Source: an uncultured bacterium
GTDB taxonomy: Bacteria; Planctomycetota; UBA8108; UBA1146
Length of the DNA: 34,407 bases
Reading direction: 5' to 3'
Assembly (NCBI GenBank): GCA_913056395.1
Contig: CAJXMG010000006.1
Coordinates: forward strand, 1-34,407
This document shows, piece by piece, positions 8,295-20,234 of this stretch. The position numbers were made by a program, and so were the translations under genes. Numbering within the stretch: the first letter of the stretch is position 1; every line of letters starts with the position of its first letter. The notes beneath the pieces were generated by a model. That model was not told the DNA's origin. It did not search any database and was given only the letters and a program-made list of their open reading frames with translations.

Positions 8295-10421
8295 TTACCA
8301 CCGATTGCGGAGGATCTTCTCAAATGAGAAGGAGACCGAATCGAGATCTGGCAGAAGCGAGTTGAACTCGGGAAGTTCGAAAGAGCCTCTCAACTCGTAG
8401 GCATTGCTGACTCCTACAAGGACGTAGGCACGGTGCTTGAGAGGCTTGAAGGGCTCCTGCTCGGCGACTTCTTCCTTCTTGTCTCCAGATTTCTCGCCGT
8501 CGGGAGGATCCTGCAGAGTGAGATTCCGGATTTTGGTATCCCCCGATTTCTCAGCTTCCTTCTCTTCGTCCTTCTTTGGTGGCTCAGGGGCTCGATCTTC
8601 GAACTCGAACACGAAAGCGTCCAGTCCACCCAACTTACCTTCCAGTTGAACCACGTTATCGTATTTTTTTCGCAGCGCAGGCAACAGGTCTGCCTCTACC
8701 CAATCTTCTGCAGATTGGGTCTCCTCAGATTTCGAGAGCAGACGCACACGAATCTCATTACGGGTGTCACCTCTTCGCAGAAGCACCAGGTCGCGGTCCT
8801 CGATGTCTTCCAGAATGAAATCCCATTCCGAATTGGGGCGCGTGATTTCAAACATGAAATCCATGGACGTGAAAACATCGCCCTTGATTTCACCTGCAGG
8901 ATCAGGCTTGAGGGAGAGGACGTAGGCTTGCCAATCCTTCTCCATCTCGGCAACACTTCCGAAGTACTTTTCTGCCAACTCGTTGAACTGGCGTTGGGCG
9001 ACTCTGCGCTTCTCGCCCATAAGCCAATACTCAGCCAGGAAACGTTGCCCTTTTTTGCTTTCGGGGCCATTGATCAGGTAGTGCCATACTGCCCACGAAT
9101 CCGCATAGTGGGTTCCGCTGAAACGGTTGCGTGCAAGTCCCCCCAACTTGGACAGGGGGGTGTGCTTATTTTCACGGATCTTGTCCTGAATGTGGAAGAG
9201 GCGATCCCGCGGAATCAATCCACTGACGATCTTTTTCTTTTTGTAATCCAACTTGGAGCCATCGCCGAAGTAAACGGCCATCCCTTCGATGTACCAGTTG
9301 GGGTAATTCCCCATATTGGCCATCTTCTTGCCCTGGAATGCATGCGTTCCTTCATGGGCGAGAACGGTATAGGTGGTACCGGTCAGGCCAAAGGTCCCGT
9401 GGTAGGCGACCACGTTTTGACTGGAAGGTTGATAGAACCCCCCAACCCCCGGTCCCATTCCCGTCTTGAGCATGAATTCATCGTGATTGCGATAGATTTT
9501 GACGACCGGTTTTTGGCGACGGACATCCTTGGCTTTGATCAATTTGCCCAGTGTTGAAGTGAGCGCTTCCATGATCCATTGATAGGTTCGGGAGACTTCA
9601 GGAGTGCTGTTGCACTCGATCTGCCAATTTCTGGATTTGATGATACTTCGACTGGGCCAGGGAACCCCTTCGTACTCTTTTCTCTTCTTCTCTTCAAACT
9701 TCTCCCGGTTCTCGCGGCGCTTTTCCAACTCTCGCTCCCGGCGCTTCTTTTCCTCTGGCGAGAGAGCTTCAGCGGTACTGCCTGGCGCCGGAGAAGTTTC
9801 TGGAACCCGGGGAGTGGGATTCTGGACAGGGGGTTTTTCGGGAGTACCGGTGGACTCTCCTGTTCCGCCTGGTGCGGACAACTTGCCACCGGACAGATTC
9901 CAGCCTTTGGCGATCAGCTCCTTGACCTCTGAAGGCTTTTTCCAGACTCCGTCTGTGGTCTGTCCCCAACCCAGTGCGATCCTTGCGGACTCATTCTCAG
10001 GATCCAGCTCGAGGACCCTCTGATAAGCGCTCACAGACTGGGCGGAAAGTCCCCTCTGATCCGCCCAGCGGGCAAGATCGAGAAAGGCCTTGGCAGACCC
10101 ACGACGATTGGCACTTTTTTCCCGTTTGCGAAATTCGCGGCGATCCACTTCTTCACCGCGGACCACTTCTTCAATGCGAGAACTCTCAATGGTGGTCACA
10201 CCGAAGACACTTTTGACGGAGATCTCGGTCTCAGTCTCCTCCACCAGTTCTCCGACCACTTCGCTGCCATCCTTGAGAACGACGATCACCCTCTCGCCCA
10301 GTTGCAGTACAAGGAGGTTTTCTGACTCTGTCGAACTCGCGAAGATCGGATCACCCAACCCTCCGAAGAAGAGGGTCGTCAGGATCGTGTAAAAGACAAA
10401 ACATTTTGAAGTGGTCATCAT
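8295..10421 (-). CDS. Exported HExxH metallopeptidase-like protein with TPR (DUF1570-like), copy 1
   Basis: This 708-residue exported protein has several visible parts. They are a signal peptide (about 1-29, ending near IFAS); a small Sm-like beta-barrel (about 40-87, with VVLKDGSEVVGEL and VKSVFGVTTIESSRI); one or two TPR helices (108-152, AYQRVLELDPENESARIALG); a Pro/Thr-rich linker and a very basic-acidic coiled segment (180-252); then a peptidase-like domain. That domain carries H356-E-G-T-H360 and E379 in WYIEGMAVYF, which is HExxH-x18-E, the gluzincin zinc arrangement. A further alpha/beta domain (about 515-708) contains a charged Glu/Lys linker. The fold resembles DUF1570 proteins that are common in Planctomycetota. 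Zn-dependent proteolysis in the periplasm or at the surface is plausible but unproven. It lies 15 bases downstream of a paralogue of the same order. The first of two ATGs (10421, 10418) is used; the SD is weak (GGGA). Confidence 0.82.
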   Translation of the reverse strand: MMTTSKCFVFYTILTTLFFGGLGDPIFASSTESENLLVLQLGERVIVVLKDGSEVVGELVEETETEISVKSVFGVTTIESSRIEEVVRGEEVDRREFRKREKSANRRGSAKAFLDLARWADQRGLSAQSVSAYQRVLELDPENESARIALGWGQTTDGVWKKPSEVKELIAKGWNLSGGKLSAPGGTGESTGTPEKPPVQNPTPRVPETSPAPGSTAEALSPEEKKRRERELEKRRENREKFEEKKRKEYEGVPWPSRSIIKSRNWQIECNSTPEVSRTYQWIMEALTSTLGKLIKAKDVRRQKPVVKIYRNHDEFMLKTGMGPGVGGFYQPSSQNVVAYHGTFGLTGTTYTVLAHEGTHAFQGKKMANMGNYPNWYIEGMAVYFGDGSKLDYKKKKIVSGLIPRDRLFHIQDKIRENKHTPLSKLGGLARNRFSGTHYADSWAVWHYLINGPESKKGQRFLAEYWLMGEKRRVAQRQFNELAEKYFGSVAEMEKDWQAYVLSLKPDPAGEIKGDVFTSMDFMFEITRPNSEWDFILEDIEDRDLVLLRRGDTRNEIRVRLLSKSEETQSAEDWVEADLLPALRKKYDNVVQLEGKLGGLDAFVFEFEDRAPEPPKKDEEKEAEKSGDTKIRNLTLQDPPDGEKSGDKKEEVAEQEPFKPLKHRAYVLVGVSNAYELRGSFELPEFNSLLPDLDSVSFSFEKILRNRW

Positions 10422-10436
10422 GGTTTCCCAGGGGGC

Positions 10437-12404
10437 TCAGCCCGTGTATCTGAATTTTTCGGTGTACTCTTCGAAGAACTTTTCAGCGCTTTCCCAGTCC
10501 GAGGCTTCACACTCCAAAACGTTTCCATAGATCTTGTCGGGAGAGCCAAAGAAGCCGACCGCAAAGCGGCGCTCTTCGCCCAACTGGGGAGTGTTGTTTT
10601 CACCGAGACCGATGACACGTTTGCCGTCAAAGACCGCCACCATCATGGGGTTTCCGCCCATCTGACGCTCTTGAAGCTCATCGACGTATTTCACATCGCG
10701 GAAGATGTTGCCCACCAATGAACGGGCGTAATCCTCACTCAATTCGGCATGCTGCCAGTTGGGCCAGGCATAGGTGGAGGCCCTGCGTTTCTTGGAACCG
10801 GTGCTGGTAGAAGCGACAACCTCATCGGAGTACAGCGATCCGGATTTTTCCCAGCGCCAGCCAGCTGGCTTGGTAATCTCTAACTTGATCGCTTCGCTGG
10901 AGAATTCCCGGCCGCGTTTGCGACCGATTTCTTCCACTGGCAACTTGAGGATCCAGTTCTTGTACTCCTCTTCCCATTCTTCGATGGACAAACCGGTGTG
11001 CTTGGTGATCAAGCCCTCAAAGAACTGTGCCTCTTTTTCGTAATTGCACATCCCGTCCATCTCCTGGACGTGATAGAGCCAATCCTCGAGAACCTTGCCG
11101 CCGGTATTCTCTTTGGTGGTCCATGCTTTGACGGGAGCCTGATTGCCGTAGATGCACCAGTAAAGGATTCCCCACGCATGACCGTAGAAGAATCCGCTGA
11201 AACGCTGCTGTGGCACTCTCAACAACTTGCGAAGATCGCAGTAGGAGCCGTCCTCGATCGCCTGCTGCAAGCCAACCAGCCTGTCACGGGGGATCTGGTT
11301 GATCTCCACTTTCCGGCGGCCGATCTTCGAGCCGTCACCAAAGTAGACTGCCAATCCCTCGATAAACCAGATCGGCAAGAAACGCAGGTCCTTGAAGATC
11401 ATGCCCTCGAACTGGTGGGTCCCCTCGTGCGCGAGGACTTCTTCCGTGCTGCCGGTGGAACCGAAGGATCCGTGGTATCCGGTCACGTCCTGACGCAACA
11501 GATTATAGAAACCACCGATTCCAGGACCATTTCCGGTCCAGTCCATGAACTGCTGGTGATTCGCGTGAATGTAGACATCACTACGGGGACTCTTGCGAAA
11601 CTTTCGCGGCCAAAACTTCTCGATAAAGACTTTGTCGTAGGCCTTGTAGAGGGCTTCCATCACATCGGCGTAGTAACGGGCGTTCTCCTCGGTGGAGTTG
11701 CAATAGACGATGTAGTTGGTCGTCACAATCGGCTCAACCTCGGCCCATGCCCTGCCCCGGAGTTCAACCACATAGGCATCCCTGCCCTTGAGGGATTCGG
11801 CCCTGCGTGCTGCGGAATCCGCTTCTTCCCGCTCTGCAATCTCATCGGGGGTCAGCCACTCTCCGCCGTAAAGCTGCTTGCCCTGGGCCGCCATCGCTTC
11901 TTCCAGAGGCATCCACTTTCCGTCGTGTTCGACCTCACCCAAAGCCTTGCGGGCACGTGCGTTGTTGGATTGGAGCTTGGTCGCCTCGCGGTAGGCCTGA
12001 CGGCTGAGTTCGACCTCACCCTGCTCAACAGCCCAATCCCCCAGATCACACCAGTCATTGGCGGTCTTGCAGTCTGCGGCGCGCTCTTCGTACTGCTCTG
12101 CCAGAGTTTTGAATCTTTCCCACTCGAGAAGATCTTGGCGCGAAAGTTTTGCAGTGCCAAATTTGTGCTTGATCGAGATGGAGTCTCCACTCTTCTCAAC
12201 GATCTCGCCCTCATATCTTCCACCACGGCGAAGAACCACCCTGACCCGGTCACCGACCTTCAGTGCAGAAAAATCATCGACCTCACTGCCGGAAGCAACT
12301 GGACTGGAGGCGTGGGTTTCAGCCATGAAGTCCGCAGAACAGAGGAAGCAAAGGCAAATCAGAAGACAACCACGGAGAAGGGTTGAATTGAGAGACAATG
12401 ACAT
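10437..12404 (-). CDS. Exported HExxH metallopeptidase-like protein with TPR (DUF1570-like), copy 2
   Basis: This 655-residue protein has the same layout as its downstream neighbour: signal peptide (about 1-33, with LLICLCFLCSADFMA); Sm-like barrel (about 50-97, VVLRRGGRYEGEI then IKHKFGTAKLSRQDLLEW); TPR-like helices (about 115-160); a GKWMPLEEAMAAQG-type linker frequent in planctomycete proteins; and the zinc domain. H326-E-G-T-H330 and E349 in WFIEGLAVYF again give HExxH-x18-E. Both copies share GxGxGGFY and YHGxFGxTG just before the zinc motif. They differ elsewhere, so the duplication is old. Start ATG 12404 has a textbook AAGGAG (12410-12415 on the complementary strand) 5 bases upstream; a longer frame to 12449 would add 15 non-signal-like residues and is rejected. 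It is the first gene of a probable two-gene operon. Substrate unknown. Confidence 0.83.
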   Translation of the reverse strand: MSLSLNSTLLRGCLLICLCFLCSADFMAETHASSPVASGSEVDDFSALKVGDRVRVVLRRGGRYEGEIVEKSGDSISIKHKFGTAKLSRQDLLEWERFKTLAEQYEERAADCKTANDWCDLGDWAVEQGEVELSRQAYREATKLQSNNARARKALGEVEHDGKWMPLEEAMAAQGKQLYGGEWLTPDEIAEREEADSAARRAESLKGRDAYVVELRGRAWAEVEPIVTTNYIVYCNSTEENARYYADVMEALYKAYDKVFIEKFWPRKFRKSPRSDVYIHANHQQFMDWTGNGPGIGGFYNLLRQDVTGYHGSFGSTGSTEEVLAHEGTHQFEGMIFKDLRFLPIWFIEGLAVYFGDGSKIGRRKVEINQIPRDRLVGLQQAIEDGSYCDLRKLLRVPQQRFSGFFYGHAWGILYWCIYGNQAPVKAWTTKENTGGKVLEDWLYHVQEMDGMCNYEKEAQFFEGLITKHTGLSIEEWEEEYKNWILKLPVEEIGRKRGREFSSEAIKLEITKPAGWRWEKSGSLYSDEVVASTSTGSKKRRASTYAWPNWQHAELSEDYARSLVGNIFRDVKYVDELQERQMGGNPMMVAVFDGKRVIGLGENNTPQLGEERRFAVGFFGSPDKIYGNVLECEASDWESAEKFFEEYTEKFRYTG

Positions 12405-12679
12405 CAGAACTCCTTGGTGATGATCCGCTTCAATTGGGATCATGAACACTTGTCAGCACAGTGATGCAGGGGATCACGATCTCCTTGAGAGACCGAATCC
12501 ACGCTCCGGGTAGCAGATCCTTGTCCCCGGGTTCCAGCATCATGCTTACCTGTGTGGATGCATGCTGGAGCCCTGGACAATCACCGATCTGGCGGTGTCC
12601 TCACCGCAAGTAAAACACCAATCAAAGTTTAGATGAGGGTAAGTTGTGGAGCAAGTCTGGCGGAAGCCTTAAATGGGGT
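12405..12679. other. Intergenic region upstream of the peptidase pair
   Basis: This 275-base stretch separates the pseudokinase stop from the start of the peptidase pair, all on the minus strand. It must hold the promoter of the pair, but I cannot point to convincing -35/-10 boxes. It contains a long imperfect inverted repeat (12521-12580) and a small CACCG/CGGTG hairpin (12582-12597). No open frame in it looks like a gene. Confidence 0.5.
12521..12580. repeat. Long imperfect inverted repeat (possible terminator or operator)
   Basis: TTGTCC at 12521-12526 pairs with GGACAA at 12575-12580. Inside it, TCCAGCAT (12533-12540) pairs with ATGCTGGA (12562-12569), separated by a short internal loop of G/C-rich bases. 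The apex spans about 20 bases. There is no T-run on either side, so it is not a standard intrinsic terminator. It could stop read-through from the uvrB operon, or act as a protein-binding site upstream of the peptidase pair. Confidence 0.6.
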
Positions 12680-15400
12680 TCAAGGGTGGTTCCAGAGGGT
12701 TTTTTGGGCATTTTTCATGAGCAGGGCTCGCCACTGGCTCTCTGCCACGGTCCCCTCCACCCGAATGGCGCGAATCATGACCGGGCTGTCGAAGGTCTGA
12801 AAGGCGATTCCACCCCTCCCCGGCGATTCTTCACGGGGAAAACTCAAGACCTCGCGACCATTCAGCGACATCCGGGATCCTTCCGGAGTGTCCACCAGCT
12901 CGACCTGCAATAACTGCCCGGGGGTCAACCGGGGTCCCATGACTGGCAGGGGGAAAGGCAGGGGATCTTCTCCCGAGTCGGAATCGGGCAACTCCATATC
13001 CGGTACTTTCATGATCCCGTGGGCGGGCAGAAGCACTGTTTCACCCGCGGAAGTGAAGGACGATCTCTCGGGAGGGCGAAACCCCAAACCGAACCAGAGT
13101 GGAACGTCACTTCCGGTCCAGAGAACCAGATTGAGATTGGGTTTTTCCCTGACCGTGATCGCCCCTTCGACCATGAGGCGAATCTGCTCTTCAAACTTCA
13201 ATTGTGACTGGAGATCGATCTCACCGCGAATCAGGACGCCACCTCCACGAGCCTCCTTCAAGTTCCCCTTTGAGCCACCGGACCAATCAGCGGCAATCCC
13301 CTCCGGAGAATTCCAGAGGAGATCCAATTCAAAGCGGGAATCCCCCCCTGAAATCAAATCGCCAGAATTCTGCTGTCGGGACCACTCCACTTTTGCGGCA
13401 CCGGAAAACAGACCAGCCGCGCTGGGTCCGATTTCCACTTGTGACAATATCCACCACTCTTCGAGGGTTCGCTTCCGTAAATCGGACCACTTCTCTCTGC
13501 CGAAGCGATCGATCAAAACCTCCACGGATTCTCTCAGCCTTTCTCCATCTCCTGAATCGGCGAGGGCTTTCAGTGGTTGCCACGCCTGATCCAATCGCCA
13601 CTCCCTTGTGCTGGCCATCGCTTCAGCCAAAACCGGAGACAGTCCCTGAACAACCTCTCCTGCCTCCACCCCTGCCATCCCACCCCATAGCAGGACCAGC
13701 CGTGGATCAGGAGAAGAAGCAGATCCTCCCTCTGAAGATGCCAGCCACTCCGTACTCCACTGCGGGTCGATTTCGGACCAGGGAAGGACTCTTGACTCTT
13801 TTCTTCCTGAGGGTTTAACCACCAATTCTGCCGATTCGACCTCCAGCAAACGTGCTTTCAGTTTTGATCCGGATTTCAATGGAATCGTCACTGTGGCGTT
13901 CTGTGCCAAAGACTGGCGCAAGGATCGAATCACACCCTGATGAAGATCCCCCATGAGAGATAATTCCCCGACAAACTCAGCCTTCCGCGAATCGAATCGG
14001 GTACCGGGCAACCAACCCTGCATCGTTTCGTCAACGAGTGGTTCAAATCTTCCCGTCTCGAATACCGACTCCAGAGACAGCCTCAATAAACCGGTCCACA
14101 ACTCCTGTTGGAGGGCGAGGTTCTTCCTTGCCTGCAGCAAGGTGTCTTCCAATGCCGGCAATCGACTCTCGGGCAGCCGATCCCTGACCTGATTCAGAAG
14201 CGATTCAGCAAGCTCAACTTCGCACTGGGAAGCATATTTTGCCAACTCCCCCAGTGTCCTTTTGAACAATAGGGACTCCTGCCACAAAATTGCACCTTCT
14301 ACCGCTGACCGATCCGTATCAGAGAGTGAAAGTGTGCCCAGCAGGGCACCGCTCCCCGGCAAAGAACCCGGATCAACTTCCTCACACAATCGGATCCATG
14401 CCTGCCGGTGCTGATCATCGCTCAATAGCTGATCCCACTGCACAACCCTCATCGGTAGCGGCTCTGCACGTTCCTCCCGAGGAGCCTCCTTCTTCACCTC
14501 TTGCTTCGGGGTTTGTGACTCCTCTCCGGACACTGCCGAAGAAGTCGACTGCCGGTCCTCTTTGTTCGGAGGAGTCTCTGAAGCGACTTTCCGCCCGGGT
14601 TGATTTCCCTGCGACAAATTCAAGCTCGAAGAGGGAACCCTCTCAGTCACGGAGTCTTCGGCAGGCCACAGCCAAATTAGGCTGATCACTGCCAGCAACA
14701 GCAACCCCATAACCACGGGTGGTCGAGGACCGGACCACCCTCCCATTGCCCCGGGTGCAGAAGTCCCTGCAAGCGATTTCAACTGCCACTGACTCAGCAG
14801 TTGATTCAAGGGGATTCCACTTTGTCGCAAGTCTTCCAGATAGGGTTCAACTTGCTCTTCCAAACTCAGGAAGCGACACCAGCGCCTCAATGTTTCCGAG
14901 ACCGCCGCTCGAAGAGTATCTGGATCCTCTTTCGTGTCGGTCACTGTCACCCTGCCCAGTTCACCGACGGCATACCCTCCTGCAGGTAGATGACGCAGGG
15001 ATTCGACGGGGATTCTGCCGGGACGCCAGCCCAGTTCGTGAGCGTCGAGGTAAAGGGCCAGAAGCATGCTGGCCAGTTGGGGAACCTCTTTTCCCCCCAG
15101 GTCTCCGGCTGCGGGACGAAGGCCTCCGGCTTCATCCAAAGCAACAAATCGAGCTTTCCCCACCTGCCCTTCTTCGATCACCCTCAGTGCACCGCGCCCA
15201 TCCAGCTGCACCATCCCCTGAACTTCCCGAAGAAAATCCGCTTCCAGATGAGACTCCGCCGCAGGAAGAACCTTCAGCAGAACCTTGCGATCGAGCCGGA
15301 TCTGACGAGCTTCGATCCAGATTCCCAATTCTCCGCCACCACGGATCTCAAGGGGTTGGAAACCAGGAATTTCGGGAGTGCCTTGCGCCAAAAGAATCAC
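12680..15400 (-). CDS. Transmembrane pseudokinase with exported Sm-like and LamG-like regions
   Basis: This 906-residue protein starts with a degenerate Ser/Thr-kinase-like domain (about 10-200). It has a glycine-rich GGGELG at 21-26, a VAIK-like lysine K43 (LLKVLP) and a helix-C glutamate E59 (FLREV). The catalytic loop reads HELGWRPGRIPVES (121-134) in place of the HRD...N motif, and GELG (146-149) stands where DFG should be. Catalytic Asp, Asn and Mg-binding Asp therefore all appear lost. One membrane span (about 228-246) leads to a Ser/Glu/Pro-rich linker (250-315), helical repeats (about 320-500), an Sm-like barrel (about 503-545) and a concanavalin-like beta-sandwich (about 670-885, ending IAFQTFDSPVMIRAIRVEG). 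A scaffold or sensor role is plausible; no enzyme activity is expected. Start is GTG 15400 with GAAAAGG abutting it, an unusually close spacing. It follows uvrB by 18 bases in the same frame. Confidence 0.72.
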   Translation of the reverse strand: MILLAQGTPEIPGFQPLEIRGGGELGIWIEARQIRLDRKVLLKVLPAAESHLEADFLREVQGMVQLDGRGALRVIEEGQVGKARFVALDEAGGLRPAAGDLGGKEVPQLASMLLALYLDAHELGWRPGRIPVESLRHLPAGGYAVGELGRVTVTDTKEDPDTLRAAVSETLRRWCRFLSLEEQVEPYLEDLRQSGIPLNQLLSQWQLKSLAGTSAPGAMGGWSGPRPPVVMGLLLLAVISLIWLWPAEDSVTERVPSSSLNLSQGNQPGRKVASETPPNKEDRQSTSSAVSGEESQTPKQEVKKEAPREERAEPLPMRVVQWDQLLSDDQHRQAWIRLCEEVDPGSLPGSGALLGTLSLSDTDRSAVEGAILWQESLLFKRTLGELAKYASQCEVELAESLLNQVRDRLPESRLPALEDTLLQARKNLALQQELWTGLLRLSLESVFETGRFEPLVDETMQGWLPGTRFDSRKAEFVGELSLMGDLHQGVIRSLRQSLAQNATVTIPLKSGSKLKARLLEVESAELVVKPSGRKESRVLPWSEIDPQWSTEWLASSEGGSASSPDPRLVLLWGGMAGVEAGEVVQGLSPVLAEAMASTREWRLDQAWQPLKALADSGDGERLRESVEVLIDRFGREKWSDLRKRTLEEWWILSQVEIGPSAAGLFSGAAKVEWSRQQNSGDLISGGDSRFELDLLWNSPEGIAADWSGGSKGNLKEARGGGVLIRGEIDLQSQLKFEEQIRLMVEGAITVREKPNLNLVLWTGSDVPLWFGLGFRPPERSSFTSAGETVLLPAHGIMKVPDMELPDSDSGEDPLPFPLPVMGPRLTPGQLLQVELVDTPEGSRMSLNGREVLSFPREESPGRGGIAFQTFDSPVMIRAIRVEGTVAESQWRALLMKNAQKTLWNHP

Positions 15401-15418: not shown

Positions 15419-17461
15419 TCAGTGTCTTTTTCTTTTTCCCCTGCGCTTGGCCGGGGACGGTGTCGCAGGTGCGGTCTCTTCGCCACGCAGACGTTGTACC
15501 TGATCACGGAGAAGGGCCGCCTTTTCAAAATCGAGAGCCTGAGCCGCTTCCAGCATCTCTTTCTCCAGTTGCTGGGCTTTGTCCTCGCGTTCTTCAACAG
15601 GAACGTGATCCACGTTCCCCTGAACCTCCTCGATCCGCTCTCGAACCTCTTCCTCAACTGTCGTCCCCAGATCACGAATCACCGTCTTGGGAGTGATTCC
15701 ATGTTCTTCATTGAACGCCTGTTGAATCCCACGACGACGATTGGTTTCGGCGATGGCCCGCTCCATCGATCCTGTGACGACGTCTCCATAAAGGATGACC
15801 CGTGCGTCGGCATTACGGGCAGCTCGTCCAATCGTTTGAATCAGTGAGGTCTCACTTCTCAGGAAACCTTCCTTGTCGGCATCCATGATGGCGACCAGCG
15901 CCACTTCAGGCAAGTCGAGGCCTTCCCGCAAAAGATTGACTCCCACGAGGACATCGTAGACGCCTTTCCGCAACTCCTGAAGAATCTCCACCCTTTCCAG
16001 GGTGTCAATCTCCGAGTGCAGGTAACGGGCCTTGATCTCGGTTTCCTGAAAAAAGTCGCTCAGGTCTTCCGACATTCGTTTGGTGAGAGTCGTGACCAAC
16101 ACCCGGTATCCGGCTGCAATGGTGACACGAATCTCTTCCAGAAGATCCGGAACCTGACCCGTAGCAGGCTTGACCTCCACGACCGGATCCAAAAGCCCGG
16201 TCGGACGATTGATCACCTCCACCACTTCACCCTGGGTTGCTTCCAGCTCGATGGGTCCGGGCGTGGCGGACAAATAAAGAGTCTGCCCGGTCACCTTGCG
16301 CCATTCGTCAAATCGCATCGGCCGATTATCCAGAGCGCTGGGAAGCCGGAAACCATGGTCGACCAGAGTCTGTTTACGGGAACGATCCCCCTCGTGCATC
16401 CCGCCCAACTGAGGCAGGGTGACATGGGATTCGTCGACCAGCGTCAGGTGGTTTTCCGGAAAGTAATCGAGCAGGTTGGGCGGCCGTTCCCCGGGGGCCA
16501 ATCCATTGAAGTGGCGGGCATAGTTCTCGATTCCTGGACAATATCCCGCTTCGTTGAGAAGCTCGATATCGTAGCGGGTCCTCGATTGCAAACGGTGTGC
16601 TTCCAGGTCCTTGCCGTTCTCCCGCAACTCCTTGAGTCTTTCACCCAGTTCCTTCTGGATTCCTGCCACCCCACGATCCAGATCCCGTTCATTGATCACA
16701 TAATGCTTCGCCGGAAAGATGGTCAGTTGATCCAACTGTCCGAGAATCACTCCACTGACCGGATGGAACTCCTCGATTCTCTCGATGGTATCGCCGAAAA
16801 GGTCTACACGATAAGCCACCTCTTCATTGGCTGCATGGATCTCAACGATGTCACCACGCGCACGGAAGGTGCCTCTGGCCGGTTCGATATCATTACGCTC
16901 ATACTGAATGTCGATCAACTTGCGCAGCAGTTCTTCCCGATCCAATTCCAAACCTTCAGACAGGTGAATCATCTTCCCCTTGAATGCTTCCGGCGAGCCC
17001 AGTCCATAGATGCAAGAGACGGAAGAGATGATAACCACGTCAGGGCGGGTCAGCAGACTGGCGGTGGTAGCCAATCTCAAGCGGTCGAGATCCGCGTTGA
17101 CTGCTGCATCCTTCTCAATGTAGATATCCCGTGAAGGTACGTACGCTTCCGGTTGGTAGTAGTCATAATAGGAAACAAAGTACTCCACCGCATTCTCCGG
17201 GAGGAATCGCTTCATCTCCGAGTAGAGCTGGGCAGCCAGAGTCTTGTTGTGCGAGATAATGATGGCGGGGCGACCTGAACGGGCGATGAGGTGCGCCATC
17301 ATGTAGGTTTTGCCAGACCCGGTTACACCGAGCAGAATCTGGCCTTCCCGACCTGATTCGATGCCTTCCGCGAGGCGATCGATGGCCTGGGGTTGGTCCC
17401 CTGCGGGTTCAAACTCGGAATGGACCACAAAGGGTGATCCGGGATATCGAAACTGCTTCAT
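15419..17461 (-). CDS. uvrB: Excinuclease ABC subunit B
   Basis: UvrB is the damage-verifying helicase-like subunit of the UvrABC nucleotide excision repair complex in the cytoplasm. The 680 residues match the family length. Visible signatures are Walker A GVTGSGKT (45-52), the beta-hairpin region starting at YYDYYQPEAYVPSRDIYIEK (about 98-118), DESHVTLPQLGGMHEGDRSR in the Walker B region, the LYLSATPG motif, the C-terminal helicase segment VGVNLLREGLDLPEV and QTIGRAARN, and a C-terminal UVR motif (ALDFEKAALLRDQVQRLR) used to contact UvrC/UvrA. The very C-terminus is Lys/Arg-rich. Start ATG 17461 begins MKQFRYPGSPF. It sits fifth in the nadC-led run of minus-strand genes, 38 bases after the HhH gene. 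A single TGA stop separates it from the pseudokinase gene in the same frame. Confidence 0.98.
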   Translation of the reverse strand: MKQFRYPGSPFVVHSEFEPAGDQPQAIDRLAEGIESGREGQILLGVTGSGKTYMMAHLIARSGRPAIIISHNKTLAAQLYSEMKRFLPENAVEYFVSYYDYYQPEAYVPSRDIYIEKDAAVNADLDRLRLATTASLLTRPDVVIISSVSCIYGLGSPEAFKGKMIHLSEGLELDREELLRKLIDIQYERNDIEPARGTFRARGDIVEIHAANEEVAYRVDLFGDTIERIEEFHPVSGVILGQLDQLTIFPAKHYVINERDLDRGVAGIQKELGERLKELRENGKDLEAHRLQSRTRYDIELLNEAGYCPGIENYARHFNGLAPGERPPNLLDYFPENHLTLVDESHVTLPQLGGMHEGDRSRKQTLVDHGFRLPSALDNRPMRFDEWRKVTGQTLYLSATPGPIELEATQGEVVEVINRPTGLLDPVVEVKPATGQVPDLLEEIRVTIAAGYRVLVTTLTKRMSEDLSDFFQETEIKARYLHSEIDTLERVEILQELRKGVYDVLVGVNLLREGLDLPEVALVAIMDADKEGFLRSETSLIQTIGRAARNADARVILYGDVVTGSMERAIAETNRRRGIQQAFNEEHGITPKTVIRDLGTTVEEEVRERIEEVQGNVDHVPVEEREDKAQQLEKEMLEAAQALDFEKAALLRDQVQRLRGEETAPATPSPAKRRGKRKRH

Positions 17462-17499: not shown

Positions 17500-17922
17500 T
17501 CAGTTTTTGGTCCCCTTTGCCTGATCTGCATGACGACATTGAAAACCGGGGCAGGGCAAGGGCAATACCCAGGGGCCCGCATCCATCAGGGCCCTGTCAG
17601 GAAGCCCGGGGATCTGCATGAATGTACAACGACAGGGGAGAGCGGGAAGCCCCGCTCGCTCTCTTTCACTCCTGGCGGTGACGATCTTGGCCGCCAACCC
17701 GGGCCCGATTCCAGAGATCAACTGCAAACGTGCCAGAGGATCCGTCCTTAAATCCACCGTTACAAACGATCGGTCACCGCTGCCCTCATGCAACAATTTG
17801 AAATCGGAGCCGCCAACGGGCCAAAGTGGTCCCATCAGAAGTCCATGCAAACCAAGAAGGATGAGCCAAAAAAGAAGTGAAGCTTTCTGCCACTGGCGAC
17901 TTTCCTCCGAATTGCGATTCAA
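17500..17922 (-). CDS. ComEA-type helix-hairpin-helix protein, membrane-anchored
   Basis: This is a short protein (140 residues). It has one N-terminal hydrophobic segment (about 14-36) and then a helix-hairpin-helix domain: VDLRTDPLARLQLISGIGPGLAAKIV (56-81), matching the NxAxxxxLxxLPGIGPxxAxxIV pattern, followed by the second half (FMQIPGLPDR, 101-110). This is the architecture of ComEA, the membrane-anchored DNA-binding protein for transformation, and of smaller HhH proteins. Non-sequence-specific DNA binding outside or at the membrane is the family expectation. The tail is Pro/Cys-rich. Start is TTG 17922 with AAAGG 7 bases upstream; no ATG fits. It lies between the DUF192 gene (74-base gap) and uvrB (38 bases). 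No other competence gene is visible in the window, so a DNA-uptake role is speculative. Confidence 0.75.
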   Translation of the reverse strand: MNRNSEESRQWQKASLLFWLILLGLHGLLMGPLWPVGGSDFKLLHEGSGDRSFVTVDLRTDPLARLQLISGIGPGLAAKIVTARSERERAGLPALPCRCTFMQIPGLPDRALMDAGPWVLPLPCPGFQCRHADQAKGTKN

Positions 17923-18509: not shown

Positions 18510-19171
18510 CCCTTCCCTTCAGTCTCAGATTTGAGGGGTCTGGAAGCGTTCGCTTTCCTGCGGGATTCACGGTAACCCTTCACCCACTTCAAAGTCAGGG
18601 GGTAAGTGGGGATTGCGGTCAGAATTCCGATGAGCGTGCCTCCCAAAGTCAGGGCCTTCAACACCGGATATCCCAACTGCTCAAGAAAGACCTTCATGGC
18701 GGTCCAATAGGTTTCCCGGCTGGCGACTTCCTGAATCTCGTTGAAAAACACCAGGAACTCATCGTAGCTCATTCCCTGATCACCCAGGATTTGTAAACCG
18801 AGCAGATACGACAGATAATAAAAGGGAATCATCGTCAGTGGGTTCGAGATATAAATGAAAATCACTGCCGCCAGACGGTTCATGGGAATCACCAGAGCCA
18901 GCAGGAACACCATGACCATCTGGATTCCAACCGTCGGTGTCCATGCGATGAACATTCCCACCGCAGCTCCGAGGGCAATCGACTCCGGAGTGTCATCCAA
19001 CTGCAACAGTTTGCGCCAGAACCCGATACCGGAGGTGTTCTCCATAGAAGTCGACGCCTCCGAGAAAGTCTCTGCGGGAGTCCCTTTGGGAGTCACTGTT
19101 TGAGAATCTTCTAGAGATGCATCTTCTGGTGAAGAGTCGGCACCTGTATCGATTTTTGATGGCTCATTCAT
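18506..19171 (-). CDS. DUF2062 domain membrane protein
   Basis: This 221-residue protein has an acidic, disordered N-terminus (about 50 residues). It then carries the DUF2062 signature of small, multi-span membrane proteins: SIALGAAVGMFIAWTPTVGIQ, a hydrophobic LLALVIPMNRLAAVIFIYISNP segment and TMIPFYYLSYLLG. Another hydrophobic stretch (ALTLGGTLIGILTAIPTYP) precedes a basic tail (KWVKGYRESRRKANA). The biochemical role of the family is unknown; it often sits near glycosyltransferase or envelope genes. Start ATG 19171 lies within the end of nadC (8-base overlap ATGAATGA), with GGGAG 6 bases upstream, so it is very probably co-translated with nadC. Confidence 0.88.
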   Translation of the reverse strand: MNEPSKIDTGADSSPEDASLEDSQTVTPKGTPAETFSEASTSMENTSGIGFWRKLLQLDDTPESIALGAAVGMFIAWTPTVGIQMVMVFLLALVIPMNRLAAVIFIYISNPLTMIPFYYLSYLLGLQILGDQGMSYDEFLVFFNEIQEVASRETYWTAMKVFLEQLGYPVLKALTLGGTLIGILTAIPTYPLTLKWVKGYRESRRKANASRPLKSETEGKG

Positions 19172-20234
19172 CCCCGGCTCCCGAATCCTCAGTCAACAAT
19201 TCCACTGACATACTCAGATCGAGAACTTTACTGGAGTGAGTGATCGCTCCCACAGAAATTCTTCCCACCCCGCTGGAGGCATGTTCCGCCAGGGTCTTCC
19301 CGTCGATTCCTCCACTTGCTTCCAAATGGGAACCATCGACAGAAATCTGATCGAGACGTGCCCGATCGATCCAGTTTGCCAGAGTAGCCGGAGAAATATT
19401 GTCGACCAGAATCACTTCGATTCCCTCTTCCAGACATGCTCTGAGGCTGGCTTCATCCTCCACCTCAATACTGATGGTTCCCGAATATCCTTCACGGGTC
19501 AGTTCGGACTTGATCCAGCGGACCTCCTCCAGAGGATTTCCTGCCAGTTCAGGGCGGGATTTCTGAAGGATCGCCCGGTGATTCTCCTTGAACATCGGAA
19601 AGTCTGCGAGGTCATGTCGGTGGTTGTTGCCCCCACCTACCGTCACCGCATACTTTTGAAACCTTCGTATTCCCGGCAGTGTCTTGCGGGTGTCATAGAT
19701 CTTCACTCCCCCTGCGATCTCAACCAGATTTGCGGTAGCGGTGGCAATCCCTGACAAGTGGCTACAGATGTTCAGGGCTGTTCTTTCTCCAGCCAACAGT
19801 GAGGTGGCCAACCCAATGGCGACAAAGATCTCTTCACCGGCTTTCACGACGGAACCATCAGCCCGTGTCTCCTCAACTCGAACATTCGGATCGAGGTGCT
19901 TCAATGTCTGGAGGACCGCTTCCAGTCCGCAGATCACCCCATCTGCCTTGGCCGTAATCACACCCTTGGCGATCAGTGGATTTCGCACCTCGCAGAAGTT
20001 GTTGCCAGAAGATGAGTTTTCGCCGGAAGCTGCAGGAACGACTGCATTCCGCAGAACAGGAGCAGTCAAATCCTCCCCTGCTGCATCTTCCTGCAACGCG
20101 GTCCCGATCCAATGCTCGAGGGCACTGCGAGTCTTCGACTGACTCCAGAAGTGGGATTCGTAATTCAGTTTGGTCTCCCTGCCAAGTAGGCAATTCTGCC
20201 TGATCAGCAATCGTGTAATTCTCGGTTTTGTCAC
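19164..20234 (-). CDS. nadC: Nicotinate-nucleotide diphosphorylase (carboxylating), quinolinate phosphoribosyltransferase
   Basis: NadC makes nicotinate mononucleotide from quinolinate and PRPP, releasing CO2, in de novo NAD synthesis. Signatures are LQEDAAGEDLT (47-57), GVITAKADGVICGLE (91-105), AGERTALNICSHLSGIAT (148-165), DTRKTLPGIRRFQKYAV (181-197) and GGGNNHRHDLADFPMFKENH (200-219), all core family blocks. An extra Ser/Asn-rich loop (about 66-84) lengthens it. The annotated start is GTG 20234 without a good SD. The first 22 residues (TKPRITRLLIRQNC...) do not look like the family N-terminus. A start nearer 20168 (CTG, with GGGAG 6 bases upstream) would give a typical length, so the start is uncertain. 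It leads the compact minus-strand cluster down to the pseudokinase. A 9-base inverted repeat flanks the annotated start. Confidence 0.95.
   Translation of the reverse strand: MTKPRITRLLIRQNCLLGRETKLNYESHFWSQSKTRSALEHWIGTALQEDAAGEDLTAPVLRNAVVPAASGENSSSGNNFCEVRNPLIAKGVITAKADGVICGLEAVLQTLKHLDPNVRVEETRADGSVVKAGEEIFVAIGLATSLLAGERTALNICSHLSGIATATANLVEIAGGVKIYDTRKTLPGIRRFQKYAVTVGGGNNHRHDLADFPMFKENHRAILQKSRPELAGNPLEEVRWIKSELTREGYSGTISIEVEDEASLRACLEEGIEVILVDNISPATLANWIDRARLDQISVDGSHLEASGGIDGKTLAEHASSGVGRISVGAITHSSKVLDLSMSVELLTEDSGAGDE

Follow-up and report, generated by a model that had tools for sequence, protein, structure and literature searches.

A predicted membrane-spanning pseudokinase with a conserved N-lobe, encoded behind uvrB in a family of Planctomycetota

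A gene directly behind uvrB in an uncultured marine planctomycete raises the question of what a receptor-like protein with a degenerate kinase domain is kept for. Bacterial pseudokinases have hardly been studied, and according to a 2025 review the named families come mainly from Actinobacteria, Proteobacteria, Cyanobacteria and Firmicutes (PMC12599244). The gene lies on the reverse strand at positions 12680-15400 of the window, the whole 34,407-nucleotide stretch of DNA analyzed here, and encodes 906 amino acids as called. A sequence-only reading had described its product as a membrane-spanning pseudokinase in a DNA-repair/NAD operon, and as a possible nucleotide or stress sensor, or a scaffold. 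The description as a membrane-spanning pseudokinase is backed by the fold, by a profile match and by 15 orthologues.

In the window, the open reading frame as called is separated by 18 bp from uvrB (15419-17461, reverse strand), which was assigned from its reading frame and synteny. Translation probably starts at the TTG of position 15391 rather than at the GTG of position 15400, because TTG is common to the nearest three orthologues (L030-L032); in eight members of the window's family (f1) the start is an ATG located 0-2 bp past the uvrB stop. Orthologues are present in 14 of the 15 other f1 genomes. They are full-length and nearly equal in length to the window protein, with one (L043) cut short where its contig stops. 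In the last genome (G001) uvrB is missing along with the pseudokinase gene and completeness is 82%, and for these reasons this genome is uninformative about absence of the gene. The window protein has no Pfam match even at E≤10 and an NCBIfam scan was also empty; 11 Pkinase matches are found at other places in the same genome. Reading from the N terminus, a domain with a kinase fold leads into a membrane span, which is followed by an Sm-like barrel and finally by a jelly roll of lectin-like type.

Kinase ancestry of the first domain is firmly indicated by profiles and structure prediction. Its N-lobe (residues 11-91; 15128-15370, reverse strand) was delimited from an alignment (A2), AlphaFold2, Foldseek and profile comparison, and its shrunken C-lobe (residues 92-212; 14765-15127, reverse strand) from the AlphaFold2 model and a profile alignment. 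A model built from an alignment of orthologues only, without kinases, reached a pLDDT of 84 and a pTM of 0.79, and the best 50 Foldseek matches in the PDB are protein kinases throughout (best E 4e-9). The orthologue profile aligns with active planctomycete kinases at 99% probability (hhalign, E 4e-18), and a profile of the 15 orthologues matches StkP (E 1e-4) and PknA (E 0.009) in the PDB. The predicted fold is bilobal and has the β3 Lys-αC Glu pair of the protein kinase superfamily. Thus, the kinase-like N-lobe proposed from sequence was borne out, including its glycine loop (residues 21-26), K43 and E59. Residues G21, G26, W28, L41, K43, E59, D89 and E90 are invariant in the N-lobe.

In contrast to an active Hanks-type Ser/Thr kinase, the window protein carries R129 in place of the HRD-Asp, S134 in place of the catalytic Asn and E147 in place of the DFG-Asp. 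These assignments come from profile alignment to active kinases, wherein the catalytic loop corresponds to GWRPGRIPVES and DFG to ELG. A domain that lacks at least one of the VAIK Lys, HRD-Asp and DFG-Asp within a kinase fold is a pseudokinase, and this one lacks two. Lys43 and Glu59 are invariant in 15 of 15 f1 orthologues and are also retained in two further families, f3 and f6, whereas the HRD-Asp is absent from all 15 and from two f3 and two f6 members. The position of the DFG-Asp is occupied by Glu in most f1 orthologues and by Asp (as DLG) in the basal members L042 and L043. The claim that all three catalytic residues are missing therefore stands for the window protein and for the majority of orthologues; common to all is only the loss of HRD-Asp. 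An intact HRD or DFG elsewhere in the domain, which would have spoken against this reading, was looked for and dismissed, as a motif search found no HRD-type motif anywhere in the kinase domain of any member. Only about ten residues separate E147 from the next helix in the AlphaFold2 model; the activation segment is thus missing. Judged by its sequence, the domain is very probably incapable of phosphotransfer.

The predicted membrane span (about residues 227-246; 14663-14722, reverse strand; PPVVMGLLLLAVISLIWLWP) was recognized by eye from its hydrophobicity, and orthologues carry a hydrophobic stretch at the equivalent position. The sequence-only reading had placed an Sm-like and LamG-like half beyond it, and a model of residues 480-906 (pLDDT 80.7, pTM 0.71) agrees in predicting an Sm-like barrel, helices and a concanavalin/galectin-like jelly roll. 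The small β barrel (about residues 501-541; 13778-13900, reverse strand) is formed by four strands in this model, and by eye the two following genes encode Sm-like domains of a similar kind. The jelly roll (about residues 666-888; 12737-13405, reverse strand) resembles galectin-like, legume-lectin and 3-keto-glycoside hydratase structures in the PDB (Foldseek, E ~1e-5). The exported half of the window protein matches no Pfam family and those of other members give only weak, unrelated matches; the likeness to DUF1080 (3-keto-disaccharide hydrolase-like) ectodomains is one of fold only.

More distant members and active relatives allow the loss of catalysis to be traced stepwise, as kinases with a like exported half exist in the same phylum. 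The sister family f3, of the same class, has a pseudokinase directly behind uvrB. One f3 protein (L139) scores above the Pkinase gathering threshold (34.1 bits, E 2.5e-8) and has a nearly complete C-lobe, with LNQ for HRD and SSL for DFG; in a second case (L138) the reading frame is broken by a frameshift, perhaps through misassembly. In f6, also a sister family in this class, uvrB is followed by biotin ligase (birA) and then by a pseudokinase with a full exported half, and the two proteins carry IGS or IGA for HRD and NLE for DFG. In the f2 genome (G251), uvrB is cut off by the end of one contig, and a second contig starts partway through the exported half, which is followed by two genes that we call pep1 and pep2 (see below). 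No pseudokinase was seen behind uvrB in f5, and the f4 genomes examined have other genes there. In four f4 loci (L142, L143, L144 and L146) a sensor histidine kinase occurs there together with a response regulator; the histidine kinase of L142 was checked with Pfam.

A search with the exported-half profile recovered HRD-intact Ser/Thr kinases of equal domain order in other families of Planctomycetota (L177, L179 and L180), with a weaker match in L183. Because these active kinases share the exported half and domain order, the window protein is a catalytically dead offshoot of a receptor-kinase architecture found in planctomycetes. The stages are represented by f3, with a full C-lobe but neither HRD nor DFG, by basal f1 members that keep DLG, and by derived f1 members without an activation segment. 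Catalysis may have been lost once or several times; in a tree of ectodomains, which has long branches, a single clade of the 17 pseudokinase rows is not rejected (AU p 0.29). An active paralogue with a like ectodomain in the window genome was considered and dismissed, since the ectodomain profile matches the window gene alone there. A separate planctomycete kinase-like group (L063, L071 and L074) has HREIRP or HREVRP in place of HRD and is possibly a second pseudokinase family.

The gene shows purifying selection, with a dN/dS of about 0.2 over its whole length when the closest pairs within the window's genus are compared. For the N-lobe, dN/dS is 0.00-0.03 in the closest pairs of this genus and 0.09 for L034/L035; the value of 0.23 in two very close pairs of genus g4 is noisy (dS ~0.1). 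As a control we used an intact-motif kinase of the same genomes. Between the window and genus g4, N-lobe identity is 68% for the pseudokinase versus 78-80% for the control, while C-lobe identity is 20-27% versus 66-68%. Constraint on the N-lobe comes close to that seen in an enzyme, whereas on the C-lobe it has been lifted. This pairing of a near-frozen N-lobe with a free C-lobe yields a clear prediction of what a dead kinase is kept for. Because conservation at the level of an active kinase is confined to the N-lobe, a scaffold role, one of those initially proposed, is favored.

In active kinases, adenine is sandwiched by a β2 Val and the Ala of VAIK. These residues are replaced by Trp28 and Leu41 in 17 of 17 members of f1 and f3. 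Among 42 scored stretches of active planctomycete kinases, none has Trp at the first site, where only V, A or I occur; at the second site, 38 carry Ala, three Leu and one Ser. Consequently, Leu41 by itself is not unusual, whereas Trp28 is. We consider it probable that the two side chains fill the nucleotide pocket and that the domain is closed without ATP, by analogy with MviN and BIR2; from W28 and L41 only, a non-nucleotide-binding pseudokinase class is predicted. The pockets of MviN (PMC12599244) and plant BIR2 (PMC4718504) are likewise reported to be plugged by bulky side chains, without nucleotide binding. Against a closed pocket, f6 pseudokinases have Leu at both positions, including Leu for Trp28.

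The genes around the pseudokinase form a conserved block. As far as contigs reach, f1 genomes carry UDPGP and then nadC-DUF2062-DUF192-HHH protein-uvrB-pseudokinase-pep1-pep2-gdh. In the window nadC, an upstream member of an older conserved block, lies at 19164-20234 (reverse strand; Pfam QRPTase and synteny). A small ORF at 17500-17922, with a weak helix-hairpin-helix match below the Pfam cut-off, is conserved just upstream of uvrB in f1. The pseudokinase is downstream of uvrB in every f1 member with an assembled uvrB region, including all 14 other genomes that carry it, and this proximity to uvrB extends to f3 and, with the biotin-ligase gene between, to f6. The nadC-DUF192-uvrB block is present without a pseudokinase in f4. 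Of the proposed DNA-repair/NAD operon, conserved adjacency to uvrB therefore holds, but a functional role is weakened by the f4 block and by active relatives in unrelated families, which adjoin a DUF1570-like gene with no uvrB beside them. The link is conserved but probably secondary, and the nearness to uvrB, although old, may reflect shared transcription only.

Behind the pseudokinase, tandem paralogous genes for exported DUF1570-type proteins (8295-12449) are conserved throughout f1. pep1 (10437-12449, reverse strand) encodes an exported protein with Sm-like, TPR and DUF1570 regions and HExxH...E (DUF1570 22.9 bits, cut-off 22), and its paralogue pep2 (8295-10421, reverse strand) scores 19.8 bits, below the cut-off. 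HExxH is invariant across eight pep homologues and is followed by a later Glu in the DUF1570 region, which suggests that both proteins are metallopeptidases. DUF1570 is not known to have an activity, and the literature searched mentions it once, in passing. The order pseudokinase then pep1 occurs in f1, f2 and f3, and no pep gene was found near the f6 pseudokinases. A kinase gene adjoins a pep-like gene in three of 13 non-pseudokinase pep loci examined. With only three such loci a general linkage was dropped, and the association is suggestive. In L179 (G034) a biotin ligase gene precedes an active kinase (Pkinase 1e-54) with a pep-like gene 13 bp later; in L219 (G058), whose exported half is alike by eye but below the profile threshold, an active kinase is again followed by a pep-like gene. 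In L218 (G301:C221) a pep-like gene precedes an active Ser/Thr kinase gene.

Taking sequence, models and analogies together, we lean towards a receptor that is catalytically dead and binds a partner through its N-lobe, so linking an envelope sensor to the cytoplasm. Such a protein would descend from active planctomycete receptor Ser/Thr kinases. As the favored input, its exported Sm-like/lectin-like half would sense a ligand or envelope status, and its envelope partner might be the neighboring exported pair of putative DUF1570-type metallopeptidases. The conserved N-lobe would plausibly serve as the docking face, forming a homodimer or pairing with an active cellular Ser/Thr kinase; the partner is probably an active kinase. 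Docking would follow PknB and MviN, whose N-lobes are known to meet back to back, and would pass the signal inward without catalysis. PknB contact residues Leu33 and Asp76 presumably correspond to L36 and E76 of the window protein, and these positions retain Leu/Met/Ile and Asp/Glu among members. The pseudokinase domains of MviN dimerize back to back and carry family constraints in their N-lobe (PMC12599244), and such a dimer has also been reported for PknB. The kept contact surface and these precedents make docking to self or to an active kinase the favored output. It is possible, though doubtful, that only the N-lobe does the work, as a dimerization module free of nucleotide that switches a genuine Ser/Thr kinase on or off in trans on an envelope signal; bacteria would then have a counterpart to the receptor pseudokinases of the plant BIR2 type. 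However, Lys43 and Glu59 are still invariant, although an ATP-free scaffold need not keep either.

That same pair, fixed in all 15 orthologues and kept in f3 and f6, could instead belong to a switch that binds ATP, ADP or NAD and reports energy or NAD state by a change of shape, an idea to which the DFG-Asp of two basal members also lends itself. Such a nucleotide sensor, anticipated in the sequence-only reading, is unlikely: the Val and Ala of the adenine pocket have given way to Trp28 and Leu41, and the glycine loop, variable among members, drifts; moreover, the catalytic Asn is lost in f1. We give still less credence to a membrane anchor or damage sensor that works with UvrB and couples excision repair to the envelope. 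Adjacency to uvrB in f1 and f3, starts 0-2 bp past its stop in most f1 genomes and the intervention of birA alone in f6 fit this idea, but the f4 block does without the pseudokinase, active relatives do without uvrB, and the protein is mostly exported, with no basic juxtamembrane DNA-binding stretch seen by eye. A kinase fold turned to another reaction, as in AMPylation by SelO or glutamylation by SidJ, has precedents (PMC12599244) and would explain the invariant Lys43 and Glu59. This is highly improbable, as enzymes of that type require metal and ATP residues, whereas the C-lobe here has no invariant acidic residue and falls to 20-27% identity in g4. Finally, the degenerate C-lobe and fast-evolving linker might be signs of a kinase decaying without function. 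This is scarcely credible and is refuted by the selection data: the frame is open in every f1 member with an assembled locus, dN/dS is about 0.2 and the N-lobe is near-frozen.

Membrane pseudokinases are already known in EssB/YukC and MviN. Like MviN and its family ActPs3, the window protein is a membrane protein with lost catalytic motifs, a deleted activation loop, bulky pocket residues and N-lobe constraints (PMC12599244). However, MviN has Thr for the VAIK Lys, which is K43 here, and its domain follows a multi-span membrane protein on which peptidoglycan synthesis depends; nor is MviN among the 19 PDB matches of the A2 profile at E≤10. EssB/YukC of type VII secretion, also absent from these 19 matches, shares the layout of a cytoplasmic scaffold pseudokinase with a reduced activation loop, one membrane span and an exported part, but is a secretion-system component, and EssB has lost the VAIK Lys. 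The review describes ActPs1/2, GLW, CP1, DYD, DLHK and the 42-family bSTK classification from other phyla and with other motifs (PMC12599244); in the features checked, and compared by description rather than by the 42-family models, the window family appears unlike them. StkP, PknA and PknB, the best sequence matches among solved structures, have a like membrane layout but are active enzymes with other ectodomains. Closest in architecture are planctomycete receptor Ser/Thr kinases (L179, L219 and L177), which share the order of kinase, membrane span, helices, Sm-like domain and jelly roll. In L179 and L219 a DUF1570-like gene follows, as DUF1570-type genes follow the window pseudokinase. Unlike the window protein, these active kinases have a C-lobe of full size and retain HRDxKPxN, DLG or DYG, and the adenine-pocket Val and Ala.
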